From an uncultured beta proteobacterium (lineage in GTDB: Bacteria > Pseudomonadota > Gammaproteobacteria > Burkholderiales > Rhodocyclaceae): a stretch of 7,534 bases of DNA. The position numbers and the translations under genes were made by a program. Under the pieces are notes generated by a model, which saw only the letters and a program-made list of their open reading frames with translations, did not search any database and was not told the origin of the DNA. This document shows positions 1-7,534 of the stretch, piece after piece (within the stretch, counting starts at the first letter, position 1; each line of letters begins with the position of its first letter). The DNA lies in the NCBI GenBank assembly GCA_903932755.1, contig CAIZHL010000311.1:1-7534 (forward strand), given 5' to 3'.

Positions 1-1
1 G

Positions 2-592
2 CCAATGATGTTCAAGAATTCAGGCAACATGGGTTTGCCGCTGGCGGTGCTGGCCTTCGGCGAAGCGGCGCTGCCGGCCGCCGTGGTGCTGTTCTTCATC
101 GAAAATTTCCTGCACTACTCGCTGGGTACCTGGATGCTCGACCACAAGGCCAAGCTCTGGAACCTGTGGCGGGTGCCGGTGATCGCCGCGGCGCTGGCGG
201 GCCTCGCCATCAGCGTGTTGCAGTTTCCGTTGTGGCAGCCGCTGTGGCTGGGCATCAAGATGCTGGGCGACGTGTCGATTCCGCTGCTGCTGTTTTCGCT
301 CGGCGTGCGCCTGACCGACAGCCGCCATGCGGACTGGAAGCTCAGCATCGTCGGCGCCATCAGCTCGCCGCTGGCCGGCGTGCTGGTGGCGCTGCTGATG
401 AACCAGGTGCTGGGGCTCACCGGGCGCGATGCCGCCATGCTGATCCTGTTCGGCGCCCTGCCGCCGGCGGTGCTCAATTACATCTTTGCCGAGCGCTACC
501 ATCAGGAACCGGAGCGCGTAGCCTCCATCGTGCTGATCGGCAACTCGGCTTCGCTGCTGATCATTCCGCTGACTTTGGCCTGGGTCCTGTAA
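2..592 (+). CDS. AEC-family (auxin efflux carrier-like) permease, 5'-truncated by the window edge
   Basis: This is the C-terminal part of an inner-membrane secondary carrier of the AEC family, whose bacterial members move organic acids or other small metabolites. About 196 residues are visible, against roughly 300-320 for the family, so about a third is missing on the left. The reading frame is open to the first base, and the ATGs at 5 and 8 are internal, not starts. Near the beginning is the family motif FKNSGNMGLPLAVLAFG, which normally lies in the middle of the protein. About six hydrophobic segments follow, roughly at residues 13-38, 55-75, 80-99, 113-135, 141-160 and 172-195 counted from the ATG at 5. 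The protein ends in a membrane segment (LIIPLTLAWVL), as is usual. The substrate cannot be read from the sequence. A promoter and the HD-domain gene follow after 90 bp, so I see no reason to link this gene to the downstream cassette. Confidence 0.87.
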   Translation, partial: PMMFKNSGNMGLPLAVLAFGEAALPAAVVLFFIENFLHYSLGTWMLDHKAKLWNLWRVPVIAAALAGLAISVLQFPLWQPLWLGIKMLGDVSIPLLLFSLGVRLTDSRHADWKLSIVGAISSPLAGVLVALLMNQVLGLTGRDAAMLILFGALPPAVLNYIFAERYHQEPERVASIVLIGNSASLLIIPLTLAWVL

Positions 593-619
593 GGCCCGAT
601 CCCTGCCGGGAACTGCCGA

Positions 620-648
620 TTGACGGCGGCGGTCAGAGTCGGGATACT
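620..648 (+). promoter_or_regulatory. Predicted sigma70-type promoter for the HD-kinase-enolase cassette
   Basis: TTGACG at 620-625 matches the -35 consensus at five of six bases. GATACT at 643-648 matches the -10 consensus at four of six. The spacer is exactly 17 nt. The site lies in the short gap after the AEC carrier gene and would start transcription near 655, about 27-42 nt before the likely start of the HD gene. No other promoter of this quality was seen before the enolase, which suggests the downstream genes share this transcript. Predicted by eye, with no operator recognised. Confidence 0.5.
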
Positions 649-681
649 TGCACATTCAAGCCATGCTCCTGAACCGTTTCC

Positions 682-1683
682 TTGAGGAATCGCATCCTGG
701 ACTCCCCGTTTCAGCCGCACAGCGGCATCTCACGCCTGAATTCCACGCTGTTCGACATCAATCAAAGCGATGTCACCGGCACGGTCAACATGGCCAATCC
801 GGGAGTGGTAGCGGACGCCATTTGCGGATTCATGGCCAAGCGCTATGAAGACTTCGACGAGGTCGTTCTGCGTGATGGTTTCATCGATCTCGAGGATATC
901 TTCTGGGGCCGTTATCCGGGCCTGTTGCCGTGCGACACGCCCTACCACGACCTGCGCCACTCGATGAGCACGGCGCTGGCCATGGCGCGCATGGTCGATG
1001 GCTACGAGACGGAGCATGGTGGTGACGTGCCCGCCCTCGGGGCCGACCTGGCGACGCTCGGCGTGTTGCTGGCCCTGTTCCACGATGTCGGCTTCATCCG
1101 CCGCCTGTCCGAAGCGGGGACCAACGGCGCCTGCCTGATTCGCGAACACGAACAGCGCAGCGTGGATTTCATGCGGATTTATCTCCCGGAAGGTCCCCTT
1201 GCGCGTTTCAGCGAACTCGCCGAGCTGATCCACACCACGAATTTTTCCAAGGCCGCCCGCGATATTTTTGCGGATTTGTCGCCGCAGCTGGTCGACCTGG
1301 GCAGGATGCTCGGCACCTCGGACCTGATCAGTCAGATCTCCGGCCGCTACTACCTCGAGCGCTGCCAGCATTTCCTGTTCCAGGAATTCGTCGCAGCGGG
1401 CGCCGATCGCATGGTCTCACCCACCGGCGAGACCGTGATCCTTTACGCTACGCCGGAAGACCTGCTGCGCAAGACGCCGGGTTTCTACGAGCACCTGGTC
1501 AAGCCGCGCCTCGAAGGCGAGTTCAGCCACGCCTATCGCTATATCGCGGCGCACTTCGGCGGCGACGACCCCTATGCGCGAGCGATGCAGCGAAACCTGG
1601 ATTTCCTGCGCGACATGATCGAGCGCAACGATTTCTCGGCACTGCACCGCAACCCGATGCCGCTGATGCCCTTGACGGCGTGA
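682..1683 (+). CDS. HD/PDEase-type metal-dependent phosphohydrolase
   Basis: This is a 333-residue cytoplasmic protein with an HD-type metallohydrolase core resembling the class I cyclic-nucleotide phosphodiesterase fold. In order it shows HxxxH (His89, His93 in PYHDLRHSM), the HD pair (His134-Asp135 in ALFHDVGF), a third histidine (His184 in ELIHTTNF) and a late aspartate (Asp214 in GTSDLISQ). These are the ligands expected for a two-metal site, so it is probably an active phosphohydrolase or phosphodiesterase. The substrate is unknown, and a cyclic nucleotide is only one option. No sensor, receiver or membrane domain is visible. The start is uncertain. The frame opens after a stop at 670-672. 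TTG at 682 lacks a ribosome site, whereas GAGGA at 684-688 is well spaced for CTG at 697. The first ATG is at 790 (residue 37). G/C-rich third positions begin near 697, which argues for the upstream starts. It is the first gene of the run with the kinase and enolase. Confidence 0.8.
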   Translation: MRNRILDSPFQPHSGISRLNSTLFDINQSDVTGTVNMANPGVVADAICGFMAKRYEDFDEVVLRDGFIDLEDIFWGRYPGLLPCDTPYHDLRHSMSTALAMARMVDGYETEHGGDVPALGADLATLGVLLALFHDVGFIRRLSEAGTNGACLIREHEQRSVDFMRIYLPEGPLARFSELAELIHTTNFSKAARDIFADLSPQLVDLGRMLGTSDLISQISGRYYLERCQHFLFQEFVAAGADRMVSPTGETVILYATPEDLLRKTPGFYEHLVKPRLEGEFSHAYRYIAAHFGGDDPYARAMQRNLDFLRDMIERNDFSALHRNPMPLMPLTA

Positions 1684-1722
1684 ATCGCAGGACACGCCCC
1701 GACCGCCTGGCTGCTCCCTTCG

Positions 1723-2748
1723 ATGAATTCTTTTAAGCCAGGCGCCGCACAGCCGGATGAGCGCCTGATCGCCGCCCTGCACCGCGGCGGCCTGATCCCG
1801 GCCGGCGCCCCGGTCGATTTCGAGGCGCTGGCCGGAGGGGTTTCCTCCGACATCTGGAAAGTAAGCACCCCGACCCAAACCTTTTGCGTCAAGCGCGCGC
1901 TGGCCAAGCTCAAGGTCGCCGCCGACTGGAATGCGCCGGTCGAGCGCAACCGCTACGAGGTGGCGTGGACCCGCATCGCGCACGACATCGTTCCCGGTGC
2001 CGTGCCCGGGATCCTGTATCACGATGCTGAGGAAATGTGCTGTGCCATGACTTATCTCAGCCCGCACGACCATCGCCTGTGGAAGGGCGAATTGCGCGAC
2101 GGACGCGCCGCGGCGGCTGACGCGGCGGAGGTCGGTCGCCGCCTGGGGCGCATCCACGCCGCCACCGCCGACAATCCGCAGGTCGCCGCGCAGTTTCCGC
2201 GCCACGACATCTTCCATGCCATCCGCCTCGAACCCTATCTCGAAGCCACGGCTGCCGCCCACCCGGACCTGCGATCCGAACTGTTCGGCCTCAGCCGGCG
2301 CACCGGCGCTACGCGCCTGGTGATGATCCACGGCGACATCAGCCCGAAGAACATCCTGCTCGGCCCCGGCGGCCCGGTGTTCCTCGATGCCGAGTGCGCC
2401 TGCATCGGCGACCCCGCTTTCGATCTTGCCTTCTGCCTCAACCACATGCTGCTCAAATGCCTGTGGAATCCGGCGGCCCGCGAGGACTTTTACGCGTGTT
2501 TCGAGGCACTGGCCGGCGCCTATCTGGAACAGGTGGACTGGGAGCCGGTCGCTGCCGCCGAGCAGCGCGCCGCAAGCCTTTTGCCCGGCCTGCTCCTCGC
2601 CCGTGTCGACGGCAAGTCGCCGGTCGAGTACATTCAAAGCGAAACGGACCGTGAGCGCGTGCGGCGCTGTGCGCGCTCACTGCTCGTCGCGCCGCCGTCG
2701 CGCCTGGCGGAAGTGTTGGCGGCCTGGAAAAGGGAACTGGATACATGA
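1723..2748 (+). CDS. APH-family (aminoglycoside phosphotransferase-fold) small-molecule kinase
   Basis: This 341-residue protein belongs to the APH/choline kinase group of the protein-kinase-like fold and should transfer phosphate from ATP to a small hydroxylated or amino substrate in the cytoplasm. Visible parts are a glycine-containing N-lobe strand (AGGVSSDIWKV, about 37-47), the ATP-binding lysine in FCVKRAL (Lys57), the catalytic loop VMIHGDISPKNILL with Asp205 and Asn210, and the metal-binding segment FLDAECACIGDPAFDLAF with Asp222 and Glu224. A helical tail contains ARVDGKSPVEYI (about 293-304), which looks like a subfamily signature. All key residues are present. The gene starts 39 nt after the HD stop, in the same frame, and has no ribosome site near its ATG, so coupled translation is likely. 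Its stop overlaps the next ATG as ATGA. Antibiotic resistance is unlikely: the setting beside an enolase and a phosphohydrolase suggests metabolism. The substrate is unknown. Confidence 0.85.
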   Translation: MNSFKPGAAQPDERLIAALHRGGLIPAGAPVDFEALAGGVSSDIWKVSTPTQTFCVKRALAKLKVAADWNAPVERNRYEVAWTRIAHDIVPGAVPGILYHDAEEMCCAMTYLSPHDHRLWKGELRDGRAAAADAAEVGRRLGRIHAATADNPQVAAQFPRHDIFHAIRLEPYLEATAAAHPDLRSELFGLSRRTGATRLVMIHGDISPKNILLGPGGPVFLDAECACIGDPAFDLAFCLNHMLLKCLWNPAAREDFYACFEALAGAYLEQVDWEPVAAAEQRAASLLPGLLLARVDGKSPVEYIQSETDRERVRRCARSLLVAPPSRLAEVLAAWKRELDT

Positions 2749-2861
2749 GCACTTCGCACGGTCGCCCGAAGGGGCACCAGCCATCACACGGAGCCGCGCA
2801 GCGGCGAACCGCCATCGCTCCTTTCCCTGGGCGGGGGTTTGCGTGGAGGGTACTGCGGTGA
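2745..2861 (+). CDS. Possible 38-residue ORF linking kinase and enolase by 4-nt overlaps
   Basis: The gap between kinase and enolase is one small open frame. Its ATG overlaps the kinase stop (ATGA, 2745-2748), and its TGA overlaps the GTG of the enolase (GTGA, 2858-2861). AGGGA at 2731-2735 lies 9 nt before the ATG. The predicted peptide is basic, rich in Gly, His, Arg and Pro, starts MSTSHGRPKG, ends AWRVLR, and has no domain, membrane segment or signal I recognise. It may be a real micropeptide, a leader-type ORF that couples kinase translation to enolase translation, or chance. The start HGRPKG also reminds me of a short dispersed coding repeat seen at gene ends in some betaproteobacteria, but that is memory only. 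The double overlap is the strongest argument for translation. Confidence 0.35.
   Translation: MSTSHGRPKGHQPSHGAAQRRTAIAPFPGRGFAWRVLR
2845..2850 (+). promoter_or_regulatory. Ribosome binding site that fixes the enolase start
   Basis: GGAGGG sits 7 nt before GTG 2858, a near-ideal Shine-Dalgarno site. It selects this GTG over the in-frame GTG at 2843, which overlaps the site itself. The choice gives a 430-residue protein whose N-terminus aligns with those of known enolases, and no upstream ATG offers a comparable start. Confidence 0.75.
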
Positions 2862-4150
2862 GCAGCCTGATCAGGTCGGTCCGCGGGCGCCGCGTCTGGG
2901 ATTCCCGCGGCCGCCCCACGGTGGAAGCCGAAATTACCCTGGCGGACGGCAAGACCGGTCGCGCCATTGCTCCGGCCGGCGCATCGACCGGCAGCGCCGA
3001 AGCGGTGGACCGGCGCGATGGCGGCACCGCCTTCGGCGGCTACGACGTGCAGGGCGCGCTGGCGGCGGTCAATGGCGAAATCGCAGCCCTGCTGACGGGG
3101 CGCGAGGCCTGCGACCAGGCCGGGCTGGACGCCGCGCTGATCGCACTCGACGGTACGCCGAACAAGGCGCGCCTGGGCGGCAACGCCATCGTCGCCACTT
3201 CGATGGCCATCGCCCATGCCGCTGCCGCGGCGCAGGGCTTGCCCTTGTGGCGTTACCTCGGCGCCGGGCGCGAGGATTTTTTCCTGCCTTTGCCCGAAGT
3301 GCAGATATTCGGCGGCGGCGCTCATGCCGGCCGTCGGGTCGACGTGCAGGACTTCATGGTGATCGCGGTCGGTGCCGCCGATTATGCGCAGGCCCTGGAA
3401 TGGACCGCAGAGGTTTACCGCGCCGCCGGGCTGCTGATGAATGAAGCCGGCCTGCTGGCCGGCGTCGCCGACGAGGGCGGCTGGTGGCCGGCCTTCGACA
3501 CGAACGAAGCGGCGCTGGATTTCCTGCTGCGCGCGATAGAGCGCGCCGGCTACACGCCGGGCCAGGACGTGGCGATCTCGCTCGACATCGCCGCCACCGA
3601 TTTCGGCCGCAAGGGGGAATACACCCTGGCGCGCGACGGGCGCGGCATCGATTCGGACGGCTTGTGCGAAATGCTTTTGGGCTGGCTGGCGCGCTATCCC
3701 ATCGTCGCCATCGAAGACCCGCTGGCCGAAGACGATGCCGCGGGCCTGCGCAAATTCACCGCCGCCGCAGGCGACAGGGTCGAGGTCGTCGCCGACGATT
3801 TCATCTGCACCGGCGCCATGCGCATCGCCGCCGCCGCCGCGCAAGGCGCCTGCAATACCGCGCTGATCAAGCCCAACCAGGCCGGTACGCTGTCCGAAAC
3901 CCGGGCAGCGCTGGAGGCCGCGCGCGGCGCCGGATGGGAGAGCATCGTTTCGGCGCGCTCGGGCGAAACCGAGGACGTGACGATCGTCCATCTGGCAGTG
4001 GGCTGGGGCGCGAAGCAGTTCAAGGTCGGCTCCTTCGCCCGCTCCGAGCGCATGGCGAAGTGGAACGAAGGCCTGCGCCTGGCCGAGGCGCTGGGTCAAA
4101 GCGGTGGCCGCCTGGCGCCGCGGGCGAGTTTTCCCTGGGGGCGCGACTGA
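2858..4150 (+). CDS. eno: Enolase-family protein (phosphopyruvate hydratase-like) with an altered active site
   Basis: This is a full-length enolase homologue of 430 residues (E. coli enolase has 432), with the N-terminal capping domain and the C-terminal barrel. True enolases interconvert 2-phosphoglycerate and phosphoenolpyruvate. Conserved sites are the loop GASTG (Ser43), GGAHAG (His156, E. coli His159), ADEGG (Glu206, E. coli Glu209), metal ligands Asp243, Glu286 and Asp313, base LIKPNQ (Lys338, E. coli Lys342), SARSGETED with Arg367 and Ser368, and Lys389 (E. coli Lys393). Two differences stand out. Ala366 replaces the His of the usual SHRSGETED motif (E. coli His370), and Asp165 replaces the E. 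coli Glu168. The loop reads PAGASTG instead of PSGASTG, and GGGAHAGRR replaces NGGEHADNN. Proton chemistry on a 2-phospho-acid seems possible, but the exact substrate may differ. It follows an APH kinase and an HD hydrolase, an unusual setting for the glycolytic gene (often beside pyrG), so a specialised paralogue is likely. The symbol marks the family, not proven function. Confidence 0.85.
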   Translation: MSSLIRSVRGRRVWDSRGRPTVEAEITLADGKTGRAIAPAGASTGSAEAVDRRDGGTAFGGYDVQGALAAVNGEIAALLTGREACDQAGLDAALIALDGTPNKARLGGNAIVATSMAIAHAAAAAQGLPLWRYLGAGREDFFLPLPEVQIFGGGAHAGRRVDVQDFMVIAVGAADYAQALEWTAEVYRAAGLLMNEAGLLAGVADEGGWWPAFDTNEAALDFLLRAIERAGYTPGQDVAISLDIAATDFGRKGEYTLARDGRGIDSDGLCEMLLGWLARYPIVAIEDPLAEDDAAGLRKFTAAAGDRVEVVADDFICTGAMRIAAAAAQGACNTALIKPNQAGTLSETRAALEAARGAGWESIVSARSGETEDVTIVHLAVGWGAKQFKVGSFARSERMAKWNEGLRLAEALGQSGGRLAPRASFPWGRD

Positions 4151-4198
4151 ACCGCAACATTATATATTAGTATCAACTAATATATAATGTTGCGGTTC
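4149..4198 (+). repeat. Perfect 23-bp inverted repeat with AT-rich core
   Basis: The arms at 4149-4171 and 4176-4198 are exact reverse complements around a 4-nt loop (ATCA). The outer part is GC-rich (GAACCGCAAC) and the inner part is nearly all A/T (ATTATATATTAG), unlike the GC-rich surroundings. The left arm covers the last two bases of the enolase stop codon. No T-run follows either arm, so this is not a textbook intrinsic terminator. Because of the symmetry, TATAAT occurs on both strands (4183-4188 on plus, 4159-4164 on minus), but no good -35 is placed for either. It could be a 3' mRNA-stabilising hairpin, a dimeric regulator operator in front of the DUF302 gene, or a small mobile palindrome. 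Confidence 0.9.
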
Positions 4199-4232
4199 CC
4201 ATTCACGGCAAACTGACGCTCGCCTTCGACGC

Positions 4233-4262
4233 GCAGGGCGGTCGCAAAGGCCGCAGCCCTGC
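4233..4262 (+). other. Stem-loop in the leader of the DUF302 gene
   Basis: GCAGGGC (4233-4239) pairs perfectly with GCCCTGC (4256-4262) around 16 nt that can form further G-C pairs. It ends about 40 nt before the DUF302 start. No T-run follows and no riboswitch class is recognised. The rest of the 153-nt gap between enolase and DUF302 holds the large inverted repeat and no further signal that I can defend. Confidence 0.3.
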
Positions 4263-4303
4263 CGCAAGCCGAAACATCCACCCACCACCCAACGGAAAAC
4301 CTC

Positions 4304-4693
4304 ATGACTGCCATCAACTTCAAACGCGAAATATCCGATTCCTTCGACAATGCCATCGAGCGCACCATCAAGGCGCTGGGCGCCGAGGGCTTCGGCATCC
4401 TGACGCGCATCGACATGCACAGCAAGATCAAGGAAAAGACCGGCAAGGACATCGTGCCTACCGTGATCCTCGGCGCCTGCAATCCGAACCTGGCCTACGA
4501 GGCCTACACCGCCAACAGCGATGTGGCGAGCCTGCTGCCGTGCAATGCGGTGGTGCGCGAAATCGCGCCGGGGAAGATTTCGCTGGAACTTGCCGCGCCG
4601 TCCGGCATGATGCGGATCCTCGGCGACGCAAAATTGACCGCACTGGCGCTCGAAGCCGATGTGCTGATCCAGCGCGCGCTGGACAAGGCCTGA
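4304..4693 (+). CDS. DUF302 domain protein
   Basis: This is a 129-residue soluble protein that consists of a single DUF302 domain (COG3439 type), the usual length for a stand-alone member. The family signature is clear: IKEKTGKDIVPTVILGACNP (residues 42-61) with Cys59, then SLLPCNAVVRE (76-86) with Cys80. Both cysteines lie in the motifs GACNP and LPCN that recur across the family. There is no signal peptide or membrane segment, so it should be cytoplasmic. The biochemical role of DUF302 is not established, and links to redox, metal or sulfur functions rest mostly on gene neighbourhoods. The start is ATG 4304, with a weak site (ACGGAAAA) about 7 nt upstream. It lies 153 bp after the enolase, beyond a large inverted repeat, so it is probably a separate unit. 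Confidence 0.87.
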   Translation: MTAINFKREISDSFDNAIERTIKALGAEGFGILTRIDMHSKIKEKTGKDIVPTVILGACNPNLAYEAYTANSDVASLLPCNAVVREIAPGKISLELAAPSGMMRILGDAKLTALALEADVLIQRALDKA

Positions 4694-4704
4694 GGCGGAA
4701 GTTT

Positions 4705-4788
4705 GATACGGCGGCCAGGATGTCCGCCGTATCGCCAGCGCCGACTTTTCGGGTCGGTGCCTGGCGGGGAAATCGGCAACCTCCCCGC
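4705..4788. terminator. Three successive stem-loops between convergent genes, possible two-way termination zone
   Basis: The 119-bp gap between the convergent DUF302 and exported-protein genes is mostly foldable. Stem 1 is a perfect 10-bp match, GATACGGCGG (4705-4714) with CCGCCGTATC (4724-4733). Stem 2 pairs CCAGCGCCGAC (4735-4745) with GTCGGTGCCTGG (4753-4764), with one bulged C and one G-T pair. Stem 3 pairs GCGGGGA (4764-4770) with TCCCCGC (4782-4788). None is followed by a T-run on either strand, so classic intrinsic termination is not shown. Blocking of read-through or 3' end protection fits the position. Confidence 0.4.
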
Positions 4789-4812
4789 GAGGAGAAGGTG
4801 CCGATGCGGCCG

Positions 4813-5289
4813 CTATTTGGCGAGCTTGATGGTCACCGAGCTGACGCCAAGATTGAGCGCCGCGCCCTGGCCCTTCGACTTGGTGGCGATGACCACTTCC
4901 TTCATGCTCTGGAAGGTGTTGGCGCCCTTGCTGGCGCCGACTGCGGCACCCGCGCCGATGCCGTTATAGGTGCCGGGGAAATCCTCGATCCTCTTCAGGA
5001 AATACACATTCGCCGTGCCGTGCGCTTCGGTGTAGCCGACGCCGCCGACGGTCACGCCGCTGATGGTGAAGGGGTAATCCTTGCCCTTGAAATGCAGCAC
5101 GCCCTTGCCCTCGGCGCCGCCGACAAGCAGGCGCAATTGCTTGGCATCGAATTCGGCAGTTGCATCGGGCGGCCCGCTCAAGTCCTTCATCGGCTTTTGT
5201 GCAGCCGGATCCGCGGCAAACGATGCTTGCGGCAGCGCGACCGTGAGGATGGCGAAAAGTAGGCCGAATGCCATTGATTTATTGCGCAT
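4813..5289 (-). CDS. Small exported protein of unknown function, glycine-rich
   Basis: This 158-residue protein is predicted to be exported. It has a typical Sec signal: basic MRNK, a hydrophobic core to about residue 20, and the site ASFA/AD at 25-26. The mature part of about 133 residues has no membrane segment and no cysteine. It is rich in Gly, Val and Thr and looks like beta structure: GKGVLHFKGKDYPFTISG, VGGVGYTEAHGTANVYFL, then GTYNGIGAGAAVGASKGAN and an alternating end (GAALNLGVSSVTIKLAK). The layout recalls secreted beta-rich families such as DUF1134/EipA, but I cannot assign it and see no catalytic motif. I chose ATG 5289 over in-frame ATGs at 5325 and 5301 because GGAGA lies 5 nt before it and the signal peptide is then normal in length. 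It lies 243 bp after the RND pump gene on the same strand, so it may share that transcript or have its own promoter. Confidence 0.75.
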   Translation of the reverse strand: MRNKSMAFGLLFAILTVALPQASFAADPAAQKPMKDLSGPPDATAEFDAKQLRLLVGGAEGKGVLHFKGKDYPFTISGVTVGGVGYTEAHGTANVYFLKRIEDFPGTYNGIGAGAAVGASKGANTFQSMKEVVIATKSKGQGAALNLGVSSVTIKLAK

Positions 5290-5294
5290 GCTGT

Positions 5295-5299
5295 TCTCC
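5295..5299 (-). promoter_or_regulatory. Ribosome binding site for the exported-protein gene
   Basis: Reading the minus strand, GGAGA lies 5 nt before ATG 5289. It supports that start against the upstream in-frame ATGs at 5301, which overlaps the site, and 5325. Confidence 0.6.
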
Positions 5300-5504
5300 A
5301 TGAAATTGAATCGATAAATGACCATCCGCCGAAAGGGTCGGCAGGAGGCCGGACTTTATCATTTTCCGGCGGAGTGAATTCTGCCGCCGCAAGGCGCACC
5401 GCATCATCAGGTTTGCCTCGCACGCCTTCGCGCCGAATTGGCGGACTACCGGATCAGGAGTTTTCGCCGCCGTCGTATCGCCGCCGCTGTCCTCAAGGGA
5501 TACC

Positions 5505-5525
5505 GCCTCCGTCTCTGCCGGAGGC
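5505..5525 (-). terminator. Weak stem-loop just after the RND pump gene
   Basis: GCCTCCG and CGGAGGC (5505-5511 and 5519-5525) form a perfect 7-bp stem with a 7-nt loop, starting 8 nt after the RND stop on the minus strand. No T-run follows, so termination is only suggested by position. In the remaining gap to 5289 I see only a 6-bp CGGCGG/CCGCCG stem (5367-5372 with 5384-5389) and no promoter I would defend. Confidence 0.3.
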
Positions 5526-5532
5526 ATGACTT

Positions 5533-7534
5533 TCAGGTGTTGATTTCGAGCCGTCTCTCGATCAGCGAATACACCGCCGGTACCACCACCAAGGTAAGCA
5601 GGGTGGACGAAATCATGCCGCCGATCACGGCGATGGCCAGCGGCTGCTGCGTTTCGGCGCCGGCGCCGAGACCGAGCGCGGCCGGAGCCAGGGCCAGGAT
5701 CACCGTGGCCGAGGTCATCAGCACCGGGCGCATGCGGATCGGGCAGGCATTGCGCAGGGCTGCGTCGACCGCCATGCCGGCCTCGCGACGCTGGTTGGCA
5801 AGATCGACCAGCAGGATGGAGTTCTTCGCGACGAGACCGATCAAGAGCGTCAGGCCGATCATTGAATAAATATTCAGCGTCTGCCCGGTGGCCCACAGCG
5901 CGGCAACGCCGCCGACCACGGCCAGCGGCTGCGCCAGCATGACGATGGCCGGCTGGATGAAAGAGTTGAACTGGCTGGCGAGCACCATGTAGAGCAGCAC
6001 CAGCGCCAAAGCGAAGGTGAACACCATGTACTTCATGGTCTTGCCGAATTCCTCGGCCTGGCCGATGAAGCGTACCTGGTAGCCTGCGGGCAACATCTCC
6101 TGTCCTGTTCGTCGCACCGCATCGACCGCTTCGCCGAGCGGGATCGAGGGCGTGGCGTAGAAGGTCGCGGCGTATTGCAGGTCGAAGCGGCCGATCACGG
6201 CGGGCCCGAGCTTCTCTTCGAAGCGGGCCACCGAATCCAGGCGCACCATCTTGCCGTCGCGGCTGCGCAGGAAAATCTTCGACAAGTCGGCCGGCTGCGT
6301 GAATTCGCCGGGCTTGGCCTTGACGCGGATGTCGTAGCGCTGGCCGTCGCCGGGTTCGTCGTTGAACTTGGCGATGTCGACGCCGCCGGTCAGCATGTTG
6401 ACGGCGAGGGCGACGTCGCTGGAGGAGAGATTGGCCGCAGCGATGCGCAGGCGATCGGGGATGAATACCAGTTGTGGCAGGTCGAGCTGGATGTCGCTGT
6501 CGATGCGGCCGATGCCGGGCACGGTGGCCAGCTTCTGCTGCAGTTCGCGCGAGAGGCGGCCGATTTCGTCGATGTTGTCGCCGGCCAGAACGAACTGCAG
6601 GGGTTCGCCGCGCTGGCCGCCGACCACCGAGAAAGGCGCAGCGAAGGCGCGCGCGCCGGGGATCGCCGCAAGGTCCCGGCGCACCGCGGAGATCACTTCA
6701 TGCTGGCTACGCGTGCGTTCCTCGCGCGGCGCCATGCGTACCACCACCGTGCCCTGGTTCACCTGGCCGGCGGTGCCGAGGCCGATCAGGGCGAACTCGG
6801 TGCGCACCTCCGGATAGCGGCCGAGCACTTCCTCGACTTCGCGCAGCTTGCTGTCGGTGTAGTCGATGCTGGAACCCAGCGGCGTGCGCAGCGAAATGCG
6901 GAAGCGGCCCTCGTCCTCGTCGGGGGTGAATGTCTTGCCGACGTTCATGAAGAAGAAAGTCGAGGAGCCGACCACGGCGACCGTCAATGCGACGACATGC
7001 CAGCGATGGCGCAGGGCGCGGTCGAGGAGCGTGATGTATACGCGATCGAGGCCGCCGAGAATCCTGTCGAACAGGTGGTAGATGCGCCCGTGCTGCTTTT
7101 CCACCTTCAGGTAACGCGAGCAGAGCATCGGCGTCAGGGTCAGCGAGACGAAGAGCGAGACCAGCACGCCGAAGGTGACCACCACGGCGAAGGAGCGGAA
7201 AAACTGACCGATGATGCCGGAAAGGAAAATCACCGGGGCGAAGATCGAGACCAGAGACAGCGTCGCCGCGATTACCGCGAACACCACTTCCTTGCTGCCG
7301 TTGACGGCGGCGGCCACCGGCTCCGGATCGATCTCCTCGCGGTGGCGGAAGATGTTCTCCAGCACCACGATGGCATCGTCGACGACGACGCCGATCAGGA
7401 GCAGCAGCGCCAGCATGGTCAGCGAGTTCAGCGTGTAGCCGAAGAAGTAGATGACGGCGATGGCGCCCGTCAGCGAGACGGGGATGGCCAGCGCCACGAT
7501 CAGCGTCGAGCGAATCGAGCGCAGGAAGAACCAC
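5533..7534 (-). CDS. RND efflux pump permease, HAE1 (AcrB/MexB-like), N-terminus cut by the window edge
   Basis: This is the C-terminal 666 codons of an inner-membrane RND pump subunit, which exports drugs or other amphiphiles using the proton gradient, together with a periplasmic adaptor and an outer-membrane channel. Family length is about 1,020-1,050, so about the first third is missing. The frame is open to base 7534, and the GTG at 7497 is internal, preceded by WFFLRSIRSTLI of the family. TM4 carries the proton-relay pair in GVVVDDAIVVLENI (Asp codons 7378-7380 and 7375-7377). TM10 carries the partner lysine in LIGLVAKNSILLVD (codon 5824-5826). The second periplasmic porter and docking region lies between TM7 (about 165-185 from GTG 7497) and TM8 (about 488-508), and the final membrane segment is followed by a short tail (SLIERRLEINT). 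No disabling change is visible. The adaptor gene would be expected upstream, beyond the right edge. The substrate cannot be inferred. Confidence 0.93.
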   Translation of the reverse strand, partial: WFFLRSIRSTLIVALAIPVSLTGAIAVIYFFGYTLNSLTMLALLLLIGVVVDDAIVVLENIFRHREEIDPEPVAAAVNGSKEVVFAVIAATLSLVSIFAPVIFLSGIIGQFFRSFAVVVTFGVLVSLFVSLTLTPMLCSRYLKVEKQHGRIYHLFDRILGGLDRVYITLLDRALRHRWHVVALTVAVVGSSTFFFMNVGKTFTPDEDEGRFRISLRTPLGSSIDYTDSKLREVEEVLGRYPEVRTEFALIGLGTAGQVNQGTVVVRMAPREERTRSQHEVISAVRRDLAAIPGARAFAAPFSVVGGQRGEPLQFVLAGDNIDEIGRLSRELQQKLATVPGIGRIDSDIQLDLPQLVFIPDRLRIAAANLSSSDVALAVNMLTGGVDIAKFNDEPGDGQRYDIRVKAKPGEFTQPADLSKIFLRSRDGKMVRLDSVARFEEKLGPAVIGRFDLQYAATFYATPSIPLGEAVDAVRRTGQEMLPAGYQVRFIGQAEEFGKTMKYMVFTFALALVLLYMVLASQFNSFIQPAIVMLAQPLAVVGGVAALWATGQTLNIYSMIGLTLLIGLVAKNSILLVDLANQRREAGMAVDAALRNACPIRMRPVLMTSATVILALAPAALGLGAGAETQQPLAIAVIGGMISSTLLTLVVVPAVYSLIERRLEINT

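Follow-up and report, generated by a model that had tools for sequence, protein, structure and literature searches.

We analysed a 7534-nucleotide stretch of DNA (hereafter the window; positions 1 to 7534 of the forward strand of contig CAIZHL010000311.1, our C311, GenBank assembly GCA_903932755.1) from an uncultured member of the Rhodocyclaceae. The host genome assembly comprises 2.8 Mb in 603 contigs and is 70% complete. Two genes of the window encode a kinase, which we call KIN, and an enolase paralogue, which we call ENO. Sulfuritalea and Rhodocyclaceae are among the names on ENO's close database relatives. The two genes, and three codons of ENO, lie as follows:

1723–2748, plus strand: KIN, an APH-fold kinase (Pfam accession PF01636); its closest curated model is S-methyl-5-thioribose kinase, far below cut-off
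2858–4150, plus strand: ENO, an enolase paralogue of a kinase-linked clade (Pfam accessions PF03952 and PF00113), with a GTG start and GGAGG just upstream
3350–3352, plus strand: codon of ENO Asp165, which replaces the catalytic Glu (yeast Glu168, E. coli Glu167, C. aurantiacus Glu165) by alignment, mapped to structure 4yws
3467–3469, plus strand: codon of ENO Ala204, two residues N-terminal of the general acid Glu206; Gly in canonical enolases
3953–3955, plus strand: codon of ENO Ala366, which replaces an active-site His (yeast His373, E. coli His369) by alignment

We collected 154 stretches through their KIN gene: 61 from sampled genomes, 80 contigs of named species, 12 plasmid regions (4 of which carry no gene annotation) and the window. 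Some genomes stand twice among them (for example, L106 and L144, or L020 and L199), and gene calls in part of the stretches, made with our own codon model, are rough. KIN and ENO are adjacent (less than 600 bases apart) on one strand in 140 of the 154 stretches, with KIN first in 134 and ENO first in 6. This adjacency exceeds chance. ENO is farther off or on the opposite strand in 10 of the other 14 stretches and unseen in 4, of which three end no more than 170 bases past KIN and one ends 1.6 kb past it. All 12 relatives in a first set that have a strong KIN match also have ENO beside it. The association holds in reverse. Of 200 genomes, 30 match ENO at more than 570 bits; KIN is also found in 29 of them, and in the remaining genome (G136) ENO lies at a contig start. 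The same set includes 32 KIN-positive genomes, of which 29 have ENO above 570 bits and three (G154, G162 and G206) have no less than an initial portion of ENO after KIN. One stretch (L066, genome G252) contains two KIN genes about 8 kb apart: one is paired with ENO, and the other, which has a stop inside its profile match, stands without ENO next to a 2-hydroxyacid dehydrogenase gene. What is conserved is a module of two genes, KIN and ENO, not the three-gene cassette with a preceding HD-type phosphohydrolase that a sequence-only reading of the window had proposed.

KIN was found in 9 of 31 same-genus genomes, 55 of 399 genomes of the order and 9 of 398 genomes in a sample of the phylum (G000 and G300 are common to the last two sets). 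A scan of species genomes detected KIN relatives in at least 579 stretches. Carriers span proteobacteria, Rhodococcus and haloarchaea, and named examples include Rhizobium, Cupriavidus, Azospirillum (A. brasilense Sp7 among them), Paracoccus (with P. seriniphilus DSM 14827), Methylobacterium nodulans, Rhodopila globiformis DSM 161, Rhodococcus and, from the haloarchaea, Haladaptatus and Halomarina.

ENO contains Enolase_N and Enolase_C domains across its whole length and scores 439.8 bits against the curated enolase model TIGR01060 (cut-off 300). Judged by sequence, ENO is a true enolase variant. We take its start to be the GTG at 2858, based on relatives whose proteins begin MSSLI or alike. 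A perfect 23-base inverted repeat with a 4-base loop and an AT-rich core lies at the ENO stop (4149–4198). The same core occurs 3′ of ENO in genome G021, where the outer arms differ yet are still complementary, and its exact pattern was not found in the rest of the 31 genus genomes. The repeat is perhaps a terminator hairpin.

ENO is an extra enolase that forms its own clade. The sequence-only reading had raised the question of a second, canonical eno in the same genome. Such a gene is present in 27 of the 28 KIN genomes tested (split over contigs in G006), and the lone exception is the window's own incomplete genome. We therefore rejected the idea that ENO is the only enolase of its hosts. 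In a quick tree, a single branch with a Shimodaira–Hasegawa-like approximate likelihood ratio (SH-aLRT) support of 100 separates 56 kinase-linked from 27 canonical enolases; the canonical set results from 30 fetched enolases, of which three proved to be variants and were left out. A sub-branch with ENO before KIN (L083, L091, L095, L225 and L226) is otherwise nearer to canonical enolase and has the Asp and Ala exchanges. The tree also includes, on a very long branch, a homologue from an Enterobacter chuandaensis plasmid (L229, 7253–9978). There, a distant KIN homologue (36.5% identity) and a very diverged, oppositely oriented enolase homologue that has no SARSGE motif are flanked by aminotransferase, oxidoreductase and nucleotidyltransferase genes.

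The kinase-linked enolases differ from enolase proper (phosphopyruvate hydratase, EC 4.2.1.11) at two active-site positions, which bears out the earlier description of ENO as a variant. We compared 132 of 150 variant sequences (L229, L191, sequences of 380 residues or fewer and identical sequences were omitted) with the 27 canonical enolases. The position of yeast Glu168 is Asp in 132/132 kinase-linked proteins and Glu in 27/27 canonical ones. The position of yeast His373 is Ala in 131 and Gly in one, against His in all 27. Position 204 is likewise Ala in every kinase-linked protein and Gly in every canonical one. Ser43, His156, Glu206, the metal ligands, Lys338, Arg367, Ser368 and Lys389 are unchanged in all 132. 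In yeast numbering, all 132 have the residues expected of an enolase, namely the metal ligands, Lys345, Glu211, the phosphate-binding Arg374 and Ser375, and Lys396; they lack two expected of a glycolytic enolase, the catalytic Glu168 and the C3-hydroxyl ligand His373.

Glu168 is among the catalytic enolase residues in a Catalytic Site Atlas list, as excerpted in PMC4922564. In E. coli enolase, a passage of PMC6863902 reports that the two residues exchanged here, together with Lys392, hydrogen-bond an inhibitor hydroxyl ‘analogous to the C-3-OH of 2-PGA’. Exchange of two residues on the C3-hydroxyl side, with the others kept, implies that the phosphate, metal and base side of the site is preserved and the C3 side altered. 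The kinase-linked enolases probably do not perform the reaction for which they are named, because this two-residue exchange is near-invariant across a clade that has a kinase of its own as partner.

An altered set of C3 ligands could also mean that ENO expels a leaving group other than water from C3 of a 2-phospho acid, such as sulfite from 2-phospho-3-sulfolactate, to yield phosphoenolpyruvate (PEP). Two arginines in loop 2 (HA.RR), found in 116 of the 150 kinase-linked members, would suit such a substrate. We consider this very unlikely: when the genes beside the pair were read by eye, with no dedicated search, none for handling sulfite, ammonia or halide was recognised. Enolase homologues can be recruited for other chemistry, as in carboxyphosphonoenolpyruvate synthase of phosphinothricin biosynthesis. 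ENO resembles that enzyme, by description only, in being an enolase homologue with presumed other chemistry. As to setting, phosphonate genes were not recognised by eye near KIN and ENO, again with no dedicated search. The part of the review PMC12288639 available to us contains no description of this synthase.

KIN scores 67.1 bits against PF01636 (cut-off 23.2), in agreement with the earlier assignment to the APH family, and this is its only Pfam match at E ≤ 0.001. It reaches the cut-off of no curated function model. The best is TIGR01767 (S-methyl-5-thioribose kinase, MtnK), at 50.8 bits far under the cut-off of 275. Among solved chains, profile matches were found to 2pyw (deposited as uncharacterized, E = 3.5e-10) and, second, to the methylthioribose kinase 2olc (E = 3.4e-8). 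KIN proteins share the conserved motifs HGD(V/I)SPKN and DAE.A..GDPAFD. Unlike MtnK, KIN is paired with an enolase. By eye, and with no dedicated search, methionine-salvage genes were not recognised in the neighbourhoods that we read.

We propose that KIN would phosphorylate a small 2,3-dihydroxy acid (likely L-glycerate) at its 2-hydroxyl and that ENO would then eliminate water from this 2-phosphate to give PEP. The sequence-only reading had envisaged phosphorylation, dehydration and dephosphorylation by three enzymes; the first two steps survive in this scheme, and the third, assigned to the HD protein, falls. We infer four points here: action of KIN on the 2-hydroxyl, a three-carbon substrate, its L configuration, and PEP as the product. 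The full conversion of (likely) L-glycerate through its 2-phosphate to PEP is a prediction that we favour tentatively. Three points favour PEP as the product. Its formation would recover the ATP that KIN consumes. Beside the pair, no third gene is universal (among the 123 stretches in which neighbours are co-directional), in keeping with a central metabolite as end product. Lastly, a PEP carboxylase gene (ppc) precedes a dehydrogenase gene and KIN in three stretches. PEP as the product in turn implies a three-carbon substrate.

The reaction proposed for KIN is that of the glycerate kinases. Three unrelated classes of these enzymes are described, none of them with an APH fold, in the portion of PMC2063504 that we drew on. 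KIN matches neither PF02595 (class I) nor PF13660 (class II), and an APH-fold glycerate kinase would be a fourth class. Among 55 KIN genomes, 52 encode a class I or class II glycerate kinase and three encode neither (G046, G252 and G277). Class II is present in 50/55 genomes with KIN and 168/344 without, and class I in 2/55 and 90/344, respectively (counts uncorrected for relatedness). We rejected the view that KIN stands in for a missing glycerate kinase, since class II is commoner, not rarer, in genomes with KIN. D-glycerate is disfavoured as the KIN substrate because 52 of the 55 genomes already hold a class I or II kinase, with canonical enolase at hand.

Neighbouring genes offer further clues; their families were named by eye except where profile scans or record annotations are given. 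The commonest partner is a D-2-hydroxyacid dehydrogenase-family gene, present in 33 of the 123 stretches with co-directional neighbours (31 distinct) and mostly just after ENO. In three examples the best models are 2-hydroxyacid dehydrogenase, phosphoglycerate dehydrogenase and glyoxylate reductase, all under cut-off. In Rhizobium indicum, genes for a LysR regulator, PEP carboxylase (Pfam accession PF00311), dehydrogenase and KIN lie in a row, with eno 4.6 kb off; L099 and L100 resemble it in their run of PEP carboxylase, dehydrogenase and KIN genes.

These neighbours would also suit ordinary chemistry, in which KIN represents a new fold class of D-glycerate 2-kinase and ENO is a duplicate D-2-phosphoglycerate enolase tuned to the catabolic direction. 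The dehydrogenase next to the pair, the PEP carboxylase and the retained phosphate, metal and base residues all agree with such a role. The exchange of catalytic Glu168 in 132/132 proteins argues against it, and dedicated copies would be redundant because class I or II glycerate kinase is present in 52/55 genomes and canonical enolase in 27/28. We judge ordinary chemistry unlikely.

Sugar-acid breakdown is a common theme of the neighbourhoods, in part of the loci only. In Paracoccus seriniphilus and Roseibium, record annotations show a divergent LacI gene followed by KIN, ENO, a fumarylacetoacetate hydrolase-family gene and a short-chain dehydrogenase/reductase (SDR) gene, and then sugar ABC transporter genes. 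The nearest solved relative of the Paracoccus hydrolase is L-2,4-diketo-3-deoxyrhamnonate hydrolase (8gsr, E = 2.4e-81). In Paracoccus seriniphilus and in L105, the hydrolase by the pair has NF053535 (2,4-didehydro-3-deoxy-L-rhamnonate hydrolase) as its best model, at 352 and 334 bits, respectively (cut-off 500), and is adjoined by the SDR gene. The nearest solved relatives of this SDR are unnamed SDR chains only, making it no more than a candidate for the 4-dehydrogenase role.

A hydrolase and an SDR after KIN and ENO recall the non-phosphorylative Route III sugar-acid pathways, which combine a 2-keto-3-deoxy 4-dehydrogenase with a 2,4-diketo hydrolase. From 6-deoxy-L-sugar acids, the pathway ends in pyruvate and L-lactate (as outlined in PMC11199699), and hydrolases of this kind yield glycolate from pentonates (as outlined in PMC6336799). 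By analogy, L-series hexonates with a 6-hydroxyl might yield L-glycerate through such hydrolases. Unlike the route proposed here, Route III as described gives lactate or glycolate with pyruvate, and the available sections of both papers name no glycerate, kinase or enolase step.

Two haloarchaeal plasmid regions (L230 and L235) place the pair amid mandelate racemase-family genes, near an annotated ketol-acid reductoisomerase gene. The annotated Haladaptatus region also contains an aldolase/citrate lyase-family gene, and the annotated Halomarina region contains galactonate dehydratase, dihydrodipicolinate synthase-family, C-terminal-binding-protein-like and RraA genes. These neighbourhoods may mark an uncharacterised haloarchaeal sugar-acid route.

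Other loci are suggestive of longer acids. L018 encodes, near the pair, 3-oxo-tetronate kinase (595 bits, cut-off 350) and 3-oxo-tetronate 4-phosphate decarboxylase (322 bits, cut-off 250). RraA-like and galactarate-dehydratase-like genes occur with ABC transporters in L071 and L078, and an RraA-like gene occurs with ABC transporters in L073. KIN might accordingly phosphorylate the 2-hydroxyl of a tetronate or aldonate, and ENO remove its 3-hydroxyl, leaving a substituted enol phosphate that is later dephosphorylated to a 2-keto-3-deoxy acid. Shrinkage of both C3-hydroxyl ligands leaves room for the C3 substituent of such a substrate. We regard this alternative as somewhat unlikely: it requires a dedicated third enzyme, yet no third gene is universal, and it leaves the PEP carboxylase neighbour unexplained. 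It also costs ATP, whereas acid-sugar dehydratases work without it.

Several observations weigh against L-glycerate as the substrate. The tetronate and galactarate/RraA-like neighbours just described could point to longer acids, and shrinkage of both C3-hydroxyl ligands fits either a bulkier C3 group or an inverted C2. D-isomer-type dehydrogenases, the family of the commonest partner, usually make D- rather than L-glycerate from hydroxypyruvate. Methylthioribose kinase, the best curated match of KIN, phosphorylates the anomeric hydroxyl of a thiosugar, not a 2-hydroxy acid. Neither the sub-cut-off hydrolase nor the SDR shows which sugar acid is degraded. In L023 and L068, the pair lies downstream of corrinoid-protein, methyltransferase-like, MetF-like and PhyH genes and is followed by a formate-tetrahydrofolate-ligase-like gene (all by eye, except the PhyH gene of L023, found by Pfam); the L-glycerate reading leaves these corrinoid-methyltransferase-like neighbours unexplained. 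Finally, at many loci, the window included, the neighbours are uninformative on substrate.

A limited literature search of open papers found nothing that pairs an enolase-like protein with an APH kinase, a glycerate 2-kinase or the neighbour families. If conversion of L-glycerate to PEP is taken in its widest form, KIN and ENO would constitute an undescribed pathway of bacteria and haloarchaea that joins an APH-type fourth fold class of glycerate kinase to a sister clade of enolase whose stereospecificity is inverted through exchange of two out of three C3-hydroxyl ligands. This wider claim is possible but doubtful.

The remaining genes of the window are as follows:

2–592, plus strand: AEC-type transporter gene, 3′ end only (frame and Pfam scan)
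682–1683, plus strand: HD-type metal-dependent phosphohydrolase-like gene, with a start possibly further in, near 790; a neighbour outside the module
4304–4693, plus strand: DUF302 gene (Pfam scan)
4813–5325, minus strand: gene without a Pfam match (frame and Pfam scan)
5533–7533, minus strand: RND efflux pump gene (frame and Pfam scan)

The HD-type, kinase and enolase frames do lie on the plus strand in the order that the sequence-only reading gave. Its description of tight packing fits the HD-type and KIN frames, which are 39 bases apart, better than KIN and ENO, which are separated by 109 bases in the window though their frames overlap in seven of the eight same-genus relatives read. Its ‘single good promoter’ did not hold up. 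The sole promoter-like site is TTGACG-17-GATACT at 620–648, one match against 0.5 ± 0.6 in shuffles of the region, and many different genes precede the pair elsewhere; we rejected a single strong promoter on these grounds.

The HD protein has no Pfam match at E ≤ 0.1 and no solved structural relative by profile search (best E = 0.81). Its nearest database relative has a precomputed match to PF28239, some other relatives match PF01966 (HD), and a homologue in L024 (35% identity) scores 22.1 bits against PF01966 (cut-off 22.0). Close orthologues (at least 78% identity) occur in 13 of the 31 same-genus genomes, the window's included (that of G021 is only a piece at a contig end), and 8 of the 13 have no KIN. 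In these eight (G001, G012, G014, G016, G019, G022, G027 and G030), HD follows the same AEC gene and the fetched stretch has no KIN or ENO match. DUF302 lies 170 bases downstream of HD in G012 (L251) and about 700 bases downstream in G022 (L244), with no KIN or ENO remnant between. As these two loci show, KIN and ENO are acquired or lost together at the AEC-HD-DUF302 site.

That kinase, enolase and HD phosphohydrolase form three steps of one pathway draws on their adjacency. HD lies immediately 5′ of KIN in five distinct genomes, all of the window's genus (window, L020, L021, L027 and L028), and looser linkage, 5–8 kb off, is seen in L024, L075, L106, L107, L111, L112, L144, L145, L147 and L149, some of which represent the same genome twice. 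Against this stand the eight genomes that keep HD and AEC without the pair, two stretches (L017 and L019) in which KIN and ENO directly follow the AEC gene with HD absent, and the presence of HD in only 16 of the 154 stretches. The triple is not conserved as the pair is. We rejected HD as a pathway member and take the gene to be unrelated local cargo; a three-step cassette is largely refuted and now highly improbable.

Those members of the kinase-linked clade whose database names we read are called enolase or phosphopyruvate hydratase because the curated model TIGR01060 admits them; the L229 homologue is a ‘hypothetical protein’. Should the substrate be found, a single enzyme assay would give a large group (at least 579 stretches with a relative of the kinase) a new annotation. 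It could also establish a new type of hydroxy-acid kinase, and it would show how a highly conserved enzyme switches substrate while retaining its base, acid and metals.

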